Below are positions 4,380 through 33,984 of a stretch of 37,475 nucleotides of DNA, piece after piece (within the stretch, counting starts at the first letter, position 1; every line of letters begins with the position of its first letter). The notes below the pieces were generated by a model, which searched no databases, was not told where the DNA came from, and saw only the letters and a program-made list of their open reading frames with translations. The stretch is from Microcaldota archaeon (GTDB taxonomy: Archaea; Micrarchaeota; Micrarchaeia; Micrarchaeales; CABMGC01), in NCBI GenBank assembly GCA_021817505.1, contig JAKAUU010000031.1, forward strand, positions 1-37,475. Direction: 5' to 3'. The translations under genes were made by a program, and so were the position numbers.

Positions 4380-5504
4380 CTAGAAAAATCCGAACTTCTT
4401 CTTGGACGTGCCTTTGTGCTCTTCTCCAAGTTCCTTTAGCTTTTCAATAAGGTCCTTCTCGTCTTTGGATAGGTCCTTTGGTATCGATATGTTTATGCTT
4501 ATGATCTCATCTCCGATTGCACTGCCGTTAAATCTCTTTATTCCTTCATCCCTTAGGAATATGCGCTTCCCGGCCTGCGTGCCCCCTTCAATCTCTATCT
4601 CTTTTGTGCCATGAAGAAGCGTAGGGACCGTTATGCCGCCTCCCAGTATTGCAGTGTAGTAGGGGACTGAGACCTCTGCAAGTATATTGTCCCCATTCCT
4701 TTTGAATAGATGATGCTTCAGCTCGCGTATCTCTATGTACAGATCGCCATTGCCGTCCTTGCCGAAGTCGCCCATTCCTTCCAGCCTAAGGCGCATGCCA
4801 TCAGTAACCCCTGCAGGGATACTGACCTCAACATTCTCTGATGCGACTATTCCACCCTTTCCTGAACAGGTTCTGCACTGCTTGTCATAGTAGGTGCCTG
4901 CGCCGCCGCATGCTTCGCAGGTCGTGACCGTGTTTATGCTCCCGAACATTGAACGCTGCTGCTTTGAGACGTACCCTACTCCTTTGCATTTGGGGCACTT
5001 TGCAGGTTTTGATCCTGGTTCGCCGCCGGAGCCTGAGCATCGCGAGCACGCCTTAAGATGCTTTATGGTTATCTTCTTCTTTGTTCCTCTGGCTATCTCA
5101 TCCAATGAGAGATCCATCCTGTAAAGTATGCTCTGGCCGACATTCCTCTTCTGTGCCTGCCCGCCGAAGAAGCTGCCGAACAGGTCTTCCGAGCCGAAGC
5201 CTCCGAAGTTGACGTTGAATCCGATGTCCCTGAAGATATCCTCGAAGTTGACCCCTCTGAAGATATCCTCCTGGGAGTACTGCCTGTTGAACATGTCTGG
5301 CCCGTATGTATCGTACTGTTTGCGTTTTTCCTCGTTCCCAAGTACGGCATATGCCTCGTTTATCTCCTGCATCTTCGTCTTGGCTTCATCGCTCTTATTC
5401 ACATCGGGATGGTACTTCAGGACGAGCTTCCTGTAGGCTTCCTTGATCTGGGCTTGGCTAGTTCCCTTGGCTACTCCCAGAATACCATAGTAGTCTTTTG
5501 CCAT
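4380..5504 (-). CDS. dnaJ: Molecular chaperone DnaJ (type I, with zinc finger)
   Basis: J-domain AKDYYGILGVAKGTSQAQIKEAYRKLVLKYHPDVN; four CxxCxGxG-type motifs. Confidence 0.97.
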   Translation of the reverse strand: MAKDYYGILGVAKGTSQAQIKEAYRKLVLKYHPDVNKSDEAKTKMQEINEAYAVLGNEEKRKQYDTYGPDMFNRQYSQEDIFRGVNFEDIFRDIGFNVNFGGFGSEDLFGSFFGGQAQKRNVGQSILYRMDLSLDEIARGTKKKITIKHLKACSRCSGSGGEPGSKPAKCPKCKGVGYVSKQQRSMFGSINTVTTCEACGGAGTYYDKQCRTCSGKGGIVASENVEVSIPAGVTDGMRLRLEGMGDFGKDGNGDLYIEIRELKHHLFKRNGDNILAEVSVPYYTAILGGGITVPTLLHGTKEIEIEGGTQAGKRIFLRDEGIKRFNGSAIGDEIISINISIPKDLSKDEKDLIEKLKELGEEHKGTSKKKFGFF

Positions 5505-5513
5505 GGTGCTACC

Positions 5514-7373
5514 TTATTTCTGCACTTTGAAATCGGCATCTACGCTTCCGTCTGATCCGCTGCCCTGACCGTCTTCGGAACCAGGACCTGGGGGAGCTGG
5601 CCCAGGATCTCCCTGTTCGCCTTGGCCGTACATGCTGCCTCCGACCTTCTGCAGCTCCTCCCTGAGCTTGTCCAGGTTGTCCCTCATGCCTTGGTAATCC
5701 TCAGCCTTTATGGATTTGTCCAGGTCATCCCTTATGCCGGTTATGCTTCCTGCAACATCCGCAGGTATCTTGTCCTTGTAGTCCTTAAGGGTCCTGTCCG
5801 TAGTGTACAATACCGACTCGGCATCATTCTTGAGCTGGACCTTTTCCAGAAGCTCCTTGTCCTGCTCCGCGTTGGATTCGGCTTCCTTTATCTTCCTGTC
5901 TATCTCATCCCTGTTCATCTTGTTCGGAGCCATTACCTGCAGGCTCTGCTCCTTGCCGGTTGCTTTGTCCTTCGCATGCACATGCAGTATGCCGTTCGCA
6001 TCTATGTCGAAGGTAACCTCTATCTGAGGCACTCCCCTTCTTGCAGGAGGAAGCCCGGTTAGCTCAAACCTTCCGAGTTCGATGTTGTCCTTTGCGAGAC
6101 CTCTCTCGCCCTGCAGTATGTGTATATCGACCGTCGGCTGGTTATCATCAGCCGTCGTAAATATCTGGGATCTCTTTACAGGTACGGTCGTATTCCTGTC
6201 GATTATCCTTGTCATTATCCCTCCCATCGTCTCCAGGCCGAGAGAGAGTGGAGTGACATCAAGGAGAACTACGTCCTTTACCTCTCCGGTTAGGACGCCT
6301 GCCTGTACCGCTGCGCCGAATGCCACTGCTTCCATAGGGTCTACCCCCCTTTCGATCTTCTTGCCGAGAAGCTGCTCTATGTACCTCTGTACTATCGGCA
6401 TTCTTGTCGGGCCTCCTACAAGAATGACCTTGTCTATGTCCTTAGGCTCAAGCTTGGCATCCTTCAGTGCCTGCATGACAGGTTTTGTAGTCTTTTCCAC
6501 TATCGGTATGACTATCTCCTCCAGTTTTGCCCTGCTCATCTGGTATGAGAAGTTGACAGGGGAGTTATTGGCACCCATGGCTAGGAAAGGCAGGTTTATG
6601 TCTGTTGACAGGGTTGTCGAAAGCTCTATCTTGGCGCGTTCACCGGCCTCTCTTACTCTCTGCACAGCCTGCTTGTCCTTCGATACATCAACGCCTGCGC
6701 TCTTCTTTATCTCTGCAAGAAGGAAATCGACAAGAGAGTTGTCCATATCGGTACCTCCCAGATGGGTATCGCCGCTTGTAGACTTAACCTCGAATACACC
6801 TCCGCCGAATTCCATTATTGTTACGTCAAGGGTACCTCCTCCGAAGTCGTATACGAGAACCTTTGCCTCCTTTGTGCCTTTATCTATCCCGTATGCAAGC
6901 GATGCTGCAGTAGGTTCGTTGACCAGTCTTACGACCTCTAGTCCTGCTATCTCCCCCGCATCCTTCGTTGCCTGCCGCTGGTTGTCGTCGAAGTATGCAG
7001 GCACGGTTATTACTGCCTTTGTTACCTCCTCTCCGAGGAAGGCTTCGGCATCCTTTTTTATCTTCTGCAGGAGCGCTGCGGAGAGTTCCTGGGGAGAGTA
7101 TTTCTTTCCAAATATCTCATACTTGAAATCAGTTCCCATCTTCCTCTTGAAAGTGGCAACGGTGCCTTCCGGATTAGCTACTGCCTGCCTCCTTGCAGGT
7201 TCGCCCACAAGCCTCTGGCCGTCCTTTGTGAATGCAACGTAGCTGGGAAATGACTTTCCATAAAGCGAAGTTCCTTCTGCACTTGGTATCAGAACCGGCC
7301 TGCCTCCTTCCAATACTGCTGCTGCGCTGTTGCTTGTTCCAAGATCTATTCCAATAATTTTCATTTTATTCAC
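5514..7373 (-). CDS. dnaK: Molecular chaperone DnaK (Hsp70)
   Basis: [53 protein letters not shown], complete substrate-binding domain and Gly-rich C-terminus. Confidence 0.98.
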
Positions 7374-7920
7374 CTTTTTCTTCTTTGTTTTCCGTGCTTT
7401 CTTCTGGATTTATTTTTTCATCATGCTTTTTCTTTGCTATTATGACTGATGCGGGCCTTAGCATTATGTCTTTGAATTTGTAGCCGTTCCTTATCACTCC
7501 CAATACCGTCCCTTCTTCCTTGTCGCTTTCTTCGGCAAGTACTATCTCGTGTTTGTAAGGGTCATACCTTCCTGAAGAGTCTATCACCTGCAATCCTGCA
7601 GACTTCAGTATGCTGATCATGTTGGAATATATCAGACTTACGCCCTTTGCATGCTCCTGCTTAAGGTCCATCGTGCTTATCGCAAGCTCGAATTCATCTA
7701 TTACCGGCAGGAGCCTTGATATCATCTCCGCTTTGGCCTTGTCCGACGATGCGTTCAGGTCCTTTGCTATCCTCTTCTTGTAATTGTCAAATTCTGCGGT
7801 CAGCCTGAGGATGCGCTCCTTGAGCTCAGCTATCTCTTTCTCCGAAGCGACTTGTTCTTTTCCAGCTTCCGCTTCAGGTTCATTCTTTTCTTCTTTCTCT
7901 CCATTTTCTGTATCCTGCAT
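7366..7920 (-). CDS. grpE: Nucleotide exchange factor GrpE
   Basis: [15 protein letters not shown]...[12 protein letters not shown]...[47 protein letters not shown]. Start placed at MQDTENG; ORF track extends to 7959. Confidence 0.94.
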
Positions 7921-8326
7921 CTGAATTACCCTCGAATAAACTGTCCATTCGCTGTGCAAACTCCATCATACGCCCGAATTCCCTGTCAATCTCATTCTGC
8001 AGCTCCTCAAGAGTGCTCTCCATGTCCTCGGAACGCAGATAATACTTTCTTCCTCTGCGTATCACAAGACCTGAGTATATGAACCTGTTTAGATGATATA
8101 TGACAGTGCTCCTGGGAAGTTTGAGCTTTTGGTTTAGGACCTTGCTTGTGGTCCCGTCACCGTGCATGCTTGTCTGTATTATCTCCTTTAGCAGTACAGG
8201 CTCTATCTCGCTCTTCTCTCCTGAGAGGCCGAATACCCTGCAGAACCAATCTACCAGTTCGGCAGCGTCTCCTCTTTCTGATGGCTTGCCCACTGTCTTT
8301 ATTATTATCTTGTCTCCAGAGGACAT
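7880..8326 (-). CDS. Winged-helix/HTH transcriptional regulator heading the hsp70 operon
   Basis: HGDGTTSKVLNQKLKLPRSTVIYHLNRFIYSGLVIRRGRKYYLR is a wHTH signature with C-terminal helical tail. ATG 8326 (MSSGDK) sits about 25 nt from a TATA element. Confidence 0.75.
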   Translation of the reverse strand: MSSGDKIIIKTVGKPSERGDAAELVDWFCRVFGLSGEKSEIEPVLLKEIIQTSMHGDGTTSKVLNQKLKLPRSTVIYHLNRFIYSGLVIRRGRKYYLRSEDMESTLEELQNEIDREFGRMMEFAQRMDSLFEGNSDAGYRKWRERRKE

Positions 8327-14316: not shown

Positions 14317-14436
14317 TGGCGGAGGGGAGATTTGAACACCCGATCTCTAGATTTCTAAGGTCATAGCCTAAAGGCTCATTACTCATCATGCTATGCATAT
14401 GAGTCTAGCGCTCTAACCAGGCTGAGCTACTCCGCC
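14317..14436 (-). tRNA. tRNA with CAU anticodon (elongator Met or Ile2), intron of about 45 nt (approximately 14353-14397)
   Basis: Minus strand GGCGGAG TA GCTC...GAGC G CTAGA CTCATA [intron] A TCTAG AGATC GGGTG TTCAAAT CTCCC CTCCGCC; 7-bp acceptor stem. CCA not encoded. Confidence 0.88.
14353..14397 (-). other. tRNA intron at canonical 37/38 position
   Basis: Removal restores CTAGA-CTCATAA-TCTAG; the intron contains a CATAGC/GCTATG stem. Exact boundaries ambiguous by a few nt. Confidence 0.7.
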
Positions 14437-33610: not shown

Positions 33611-33699
33611 GGGCCCGTAGCTCAGCTTGGACAGAGCGACAGACTTCTAATCTGAGGGTCGCGGGTTCAAAAGACCTTCTGAAAATCCCGCCGGGCCCG
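33611..33699 (+). tRNA. tRNA-Arg (TCT anticodon) with 14-nt intron in the T-loop
   Basis: GGGCCCG TA GCTC AGCTTGGACA GAGC G ACAGA CTTCTAA TCTGA GGGTC GCGGG TTCAAA[AGACCTTCTGAAAA]T CCCGC CGGGCCC G. Confidence 0.9.
33672..33685 (+). other. Non-canonical tRNA intron (about position 59/60) in a bulge-helix-bulge
   Basis: TTCA/TGAA 4-bp central helix flanked by 3-nt bulges AAA and AAT; splicing after the second nt of each bulge yields T-loop TTCAAAT. Confidence 0.8.
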
Positions 33700-33714: not shown

Positions 33715-33984
33715 ATGGGAAACAATAAGGAATTTGACGAGATAATCGCGCAGATAAAGCAGCAGATAGACTCCTTGCTTAATGATAACAGCGTTCCTAG
33801 GAACGTGAAGAATTCGCTGAGCGAGGCAAAGGTTGCACTTGCTGATGAAAAGAATCCTTATTCGGTCAGGGCAGGCACAGCGACATATAAAGTAGATGAG
33901 ATAAGCAACGACATAAACCTGCCTCCCTATGCCAGGACAGTTGTCTGGAACATACTCAGCATGCTTGAAGGAATAAAGGAGTGA
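33715..33984 (+). CDS. UPF0147 family protein
   Basis: LLNDNSVPRNVKNSLSEAK...NPYSVRAGTATYKVDEISNDINLPPYARTVVWNILSMLEGI. Confidence 0.88.
   Translation: MGNNKEFDEIIAQIKQQIDSLLNDNSVPRNVKNSLSEAKVALADEKNPYSVRAGTATYKVDEISNDINLPPYARTVVWNILSMLEGIKE

Follow-up and report, generated by a model that had tools for sequence, protein, structure and literature searches.

The question raised by this locus is whether a tRNA-Arg(UCU) gene whose T-stem halves are separated by 21 nt (TTCAAAAGACCTTCTGAAAAT) rather than 7 carries a very short intron, is decaying, or encodes a tRNA with an enlarged T-loop. The gene lies in a window of 37,475 nt (the whole stretch of DNA analysed; contig JAKAUU010000031.1) from a member of the Micrarchaeota. 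The original prediction was that 14 nt inside the T-loop are an intron, excised from a perfect bulge-helix-bulge (BHB) motif, and it placed every element correctly, the 21-nt spacing included. Based on the evidence described below, it is almost certain that this tRNA-Arg(UCU) gene is functional and single-copy and that a 14-nt EndA intron, which EndA and RtcB would splice, lies between positions 59 and 60.

The gene and its detection

The features of the locus are as follows, with the basis of each assignment in parentheses.

33611-33699 (+), tRNA-Arg(UCU) gene, 89 nt unspliced and 75 nt spliced, CCA not encoded (sequence reading, covariance model, orthologues)
33611-33617 and 33692-33698 (+), acceptor stem halves (sequence reading)
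33646-33648 (+), anticodon TCT (sequence reading)
33661-33665 (+), T-stem 5' half GCGGG, which is the outer helix of the BHB (sequence reading)
33666-33671 (+), T-loop 5' exon part TTCAAA, positions 54-59 (sequence reading, orthologues)
33666-33669 (+), TTCA, exon strand of the central helix (orthologues, register test)
33670-33672 (+), 5' bulge AA/A, predicted cut at 33671/33672 (sequence reading, orthologues)
33672-33685 (+), putative intron, 14 nt, AGACCTTCTGAAAA, between positions 59 and 60 (sequence, intron-less orthologues, covariation)
33673-33679 (+), apical hairpin of the BHB drawing, GA-CCT-TC, 2 bp only (folding, shuffle comparison)
33680-33683 (+), TGAA, intron strand of the central helix, partner of TTCA at 33666-33669 (orthologues, register test)
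33684-33686 (+), 3' bulge AA/T, predicted cut at 33685/33686 (sequence reading, orthologues)
33686 (+), T60, the sole 3' exon base of the T-loop (sequence reading)
33687-33691 (+), T-stem 3' half CCCGC (sequence reading)
33715-33984 (+), conserved downstream gene, 89 aa, marker of the syntenic locus in 22 related genomes

The downstream gene may resemble UPF0147. Elsewhere in the window (4380-7959, - strand), dnaJ-, dnaK-, and grpE-like genes, named from their translations, occur in a row in this DPANN archaeon.

Once 33672-33685 are taken out, TTCAAAT is left and a canonical tRNA is restored. ARAGORN made no gene call at 33611-33699, and the general tRNA model of Rfam, which scores 33.1 bits at this gene, mispairs the acceptor stem with the T-stem and misfolds the 3' half. 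Thus, genuine genes may be missing from the tRNA inventories that have been reported for the reduced genomes of this group. When a covariance model that allows for T-loop inserts is used, the entire gene is matched at 79.8 bits and the 14 extra bases are placed between positions 59 and 60, but this score is a description and not an independent test, because the window gene is among the 30 training sequences (ordinary tRNAs of the window's genome and T-loop-intron tRNAs of its relatives). Another tRNA in the window that was missed by ARAGORN, in this case found by Rfam, has the anticodon CAU (Met), an intron (about 45 nt) in its anticodon loop, and one T-stem mismatch (GGGTG/CTCCC; 14317-14436, - strand).

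Comparative evidence for an intron

Among 44 related genomes with 45 Arg(UCU) genes in total, 37 genes from 37 genomes have an insert at the same site, and the same is true of 15 of 19 Arg(CCU) genes. These inserts range from 12 to 43 nt and their interiors are mostly unrelated, and all 52 insert-bearing Arg genes keep TTCAAA and the final T, leaving TTCAAAT, which is also the T-loop of the intron-less Arg genes (12 of 12). At the syntenic locus, defined by the same downstream gene, 21 of 22 genomes have the intron and one (G023) precisely lacks it; the difference is one of intron presence and absence at an orthologous locus. Taken together with the conserved helix described next, this is strong comparative evidence that the same-site insert represents a real intron, as originally proposed.

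The runs of A make the cut site ambiguous when only the window sequence is considered. The proposal of a cut after the second base of each bulge could be settled using relatives, several of which have AGT, ACT, or ATT as the 3' bulge, because in these only that cut yields TTCAAAT.

In 45 of the 52 insert-bearing genes, the TTCA of the exon pairs at all four positions with a 4-nt intron segment that is separated from the T-stem by three bases. An average of 3.85 pairs forms in register across the 48 distinct segments, none of which retains all four pairs when the partner is slid one to six bases upstream or one to three downstream. By chance, an in-register 4-bp helix between exon and intron forms in about 1% of shuffled 14-mers, whereas this arrangement recurs in dozens of relatives, across two families. 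Because the T-loop exon is nearly invariant, covariation was sought using the rare exon TCCA, by a pattern search of 302 genomes of the phylum that returned ten real tRNAs (nine Lys(CUU) and one Ser-type); one further match (L228) was dropped, as it is not a tRNA. The intron partner is TGGA in nine of the ten and TGAA in the other, with the TCCA/TGGA pairs found in Lys(CUU) of one family and in a Ser-type tRNA of another. At the corresponding intron position, 42 of the 47 TTCA exons face an A and 5 face a G. The covariation gives a Fisher p of 2e-6, a value that ignores shared ancestry.

Two readings would deny that a functional tRNA is made by excision of the insert. If the gene were a degenerating one with a random insertion in its T-loop, it might well be missed or misread by standard finders, as it is, and have a stem defect such as the A.A mismatch at 27-43 in the anticodon stem. 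However, the remaining stems are all intact, Arg(UCU) orthologues also have non-pairing bases at 27-43, five genomes of the same genus keep the gene at 92-100% identity, and same-site inserts with the conserved helix recur in two families. A second, intact Arg(UCU) gene had been named as the observation that would point to decay, and none was found in the window's genome, although the assembly (839 kb, 34 contigs) is only about 84% complete, so that another Arg(UCU) gene could sit in a gap. We consider decay highly improbable on these grounds. The same very low probability attaches to an insert that is retained, giving a mature tRNA with a 21-nt T-loop. The acceptor stem and T-stem do still form in the unspliced fold, but whereas TTCAAA...T and the pairing between exon and intron stay constant, the length of the inserts (10-43 nt) and their interior sequence vary freely, a combination expected of excision and not of a functional loop, and intron-less orthologues have an ordinary loop. 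A group I intron was also set aside, as 14 nt is far too short. An intron that is excised is thus the reading that we follow below.

The predicted splicing substrate and enzymes

We infer that cutting and joining occur in the cell, and that they involve the two enzymes named above. After transcription, the UUCA with which the T-loop begins would form a helix with UGAA, located toward the intron's 3' end, so that three unpaired nucleotides bulge out at either splice site. A homodimer of epsilon2 EndA would then cut each bulge after its second base (AA/A and AA/U), and RtcB would join the exon ends to give the canonical T-loop UUCAAAU, after which the T-arm could fold normally.

The window's genome encodes one splicing endonuclease (384 aa) and RtcB, the archaeal tRNA ligase. 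EndA residues 6-384 align with residues 8-387 of the ARMAN-2 epsilon2 enzyme (PDB 4FZ2; E = 6.6e-149), and in this alignment the single chain comprises three fused units, alphaN-alpha-betaC. Reading from the alignment, with residue roles taken from literature numbering, the catalytic residues are Y233, H248, and K279 (ARMAN-2 Y236/H251/K282), and Y157 and K158 correspond to Y160/K161 of the ARMAN-specific loop (ASL). The original prediction had suggested an endonuclease of broad specificity and had recommended looking at the EndA type, noting the epsilon2 form of ARMAN-type archaea; the full-length match to 4FZ2 supports the assignment of this EndA to the broad-specificity epsilon2 type. The intron load is not explained by enzyme type alone, because 286 of 302 genomes of the phylum have an EndA homologue, among them members of families in which T-loop introns are few, and the idea that epsilon2 EndA by itself accounts for T-loop introns was dropped for this reason.

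The description of the BHB as "perfect" fared less well. The central helix is conserved and covaries, so that part stands, but the word is too generous because the apical helix is 2 bp and folding prefers another structure. Specifically, the ViennaRNA optimum (-9.2 kcal/mol) is an AGA/UCU hairpin within an open loop, with the central helix not formed, whereas the full BHB fold, with a 2-bp GA/TC stem over a triloop, is at -6.9 kcal/mol. The substrate might instead be a relaxed bulge-helix-loop (BHL), with one true bulge and the 5' cut in the apical loop, in which case the intron and the enzyme would be the same. Dropping the 2-bp apical stem brings a gain in stability of 1.2 kcal/mol (to -8.1 kcal/mol), apical stems of at least 3 bp are found in only 2 of 31 distinct introns of 10-16 nt, and epsilon2 EndA does cut BHL substrates (PMC12397907; PMC4033280), the ARMAN-2 enzyme having been reported to act in vitro on BHB as well as BHL substrates (PMC12397907). 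Against this, among distinct introns of 12-16 nt, 10 of 17 carry an apical stem of two or more pairs at the exact BHB register, after a 3-nt 5' bulge (1.7 expected from shuffles), and among introns of 17-25 nt, 26 of 33 carry a stem of three or more. The comparison thus favors the BHB drawing, although the apical stem is not universal. We would give the BHL form a little less than an even chance, and retain the BHB as the working drawing.

Distribution, turnover, and known systems

The expectation that the genome would contain further short non-canonical introns was confirmed at the sequence level: there are at least seven T-loop introns, that is, at least six besides that of Arg(UCU). They are listed here by tRNA and length, with isotypes and lengths read by eye for the five that are not in Arg tRNAs.

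Arg(UCU), 14 nt
Arg(CCU), 32 nt
Leu(CAA), 13 nt
Ala(GGC), 30 nt
Pro-type tRNA, 31 nt
Ser(CGA), 14 nt
second Ser-type tRNA, probably GGA, 31 nt

Some of these tRNAs have other unusual properties. The tRNA-Ser(CGA) (L237-L239; G000:C16:25736-25846) contains, besides the 14-nt intron in its T-loop, a second short one of about 13 nt in the anticodon arm, and was missed by both the Rfam and custom model scans. The Pro-type tRNA (G000:C9:2136-2240; L206, L250), also found in same-genus genomes (L251-L254) and thus in five species of the genus, has the anticodon loop TTAGGGA, giving the anticodon AGG with A34, which would be unusual for an archaeon. No Pro(GGG) was seen by eye among the tRNAs of the window's genome.

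Across the phylum, a strict pattern for the 59/60 motif matched 172 of 302 genomes, and a reversed control pattern matched 2. By hand count, the matches include 141 of 165 genomes of the same order (85%) versus 31 of the 137 others (23%). One genus of the same family (g2; G006, G032, G173-G178) has the pattern in none of its eight genomes and the endonuclease in seven, and represents a natural intron-poor control. A stricter pattern, applied to a collection of 85,462 species, returned 112 matches. Ten are ordinary tRNAs of bacteria that have A60, and were discarded; the remaining 102 tRNAs each contain an insert at 59/60, and TTCAAAT or TTCGAAT is restored when it is removed. It should be noted that these counts are lower bounds, because the pattern is biased to one D-arm type. 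The original prediction stated that T-loop introns occur mainly in some Crenarchaeota, and this does not hold for the 102 perfect-helix cases, which are mostly from Micrarchaeota, with others from Woesearchaeota, Pacearchaeota, Nanoarchaeota, Aenigmatarchaeota, Thermoplasmata, and Asgard, and a single Thermoproteota record. The shortest case seen is in tRNA-Phe(GAA) of a Micrarchaeota MAG (L178; JAADIF010000044.1), which has 10 extra T-loop bases (TTCAAA, then AATTTGAAAA, then T).

Far from being a crenarchaeal oddity, T-loop introns thus occur regularly across a whole DPANN order. With a similar endonuclease phylum-wide and an unequal intron load (that of the same order versus other families), the phylum offers a natural comparison for deciding whether intron gain is driven by the type of enzyme or by the history of the lineage.

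In two genomes, ARM-1 (13 nt) and FK_Sedi_B_Bin.309 (21 nt), Arg(UCU) and Arg(CCU) have identical introns, which fits copying, and for which gene conversion between sister genes would suffice. In the window's genome, the intron of Arg(UCU) matches that of Ser(CGA) at 12 of 14 bases; we do not take this as proof of copying, as most of the identity is imposed by the shared splice motif. We raise as a tentative idea, and one that we would sooner doubt than assume, that introns are gained and lost at an active 59/60 site in Micrarchaeota and are also copied from one tRNA gene to another, as has been suggested for Thermoproteales. Were this so, it would explain why, at this single position, some introns are unrelated, some are identical, and some genes have none.

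The kind of intron described here is already known, as both the 59/60 position and the cleavage of non-canonical introns by epsilon2 enzymes have been described. A 2014 review includes 59/60 among archaeal intron positions and names Crenarchaeota and Nanoarchaeota as rich sources of introns (PMC4090602), a 2025 paper notes that archaeal introns occur in the T-arm (PMC12397907), and ARMAN-1 and ARMAN-2 have tRNAs with multiple introns and an epsilon2 enzyme that cuts non-canonical ones (PMC4033280). We found no survey of 59/60 introns in Micrarchaeota or other DPANN in the open-access literature, and their frequency in these groups appears to be less documented.

Compared with known archaeal non-canonical 59/60 introns, those reported here are alike in tRNA region and in their EndA-type splice sites. 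They differ from the 59/60 introns of the 2014 review (PMC4090602) in that the carrier is a member of the Micrarchaeota, with the strict motif in most genomes of its order. For Thermoproteales, transposition of tRNA introns was proposed by Fujishima et al. 2010, as cited in PMC4090602 and PMC4033280. Here as there, a genome has several tRNAs with introns, turnover is fast, and the same intron can be present in different tRNAs of a genome; the difference is that the identical pairs here are sister Arg isoacceptors, and the Arg/Ser similarity in the window's genus is weak. The endonuclease, based on the full-length alignment, is the same three-unit enzyme as the epsilon2 EndA of ARMAN-2, with the catalytic and ASL residues conserved, in a different species.
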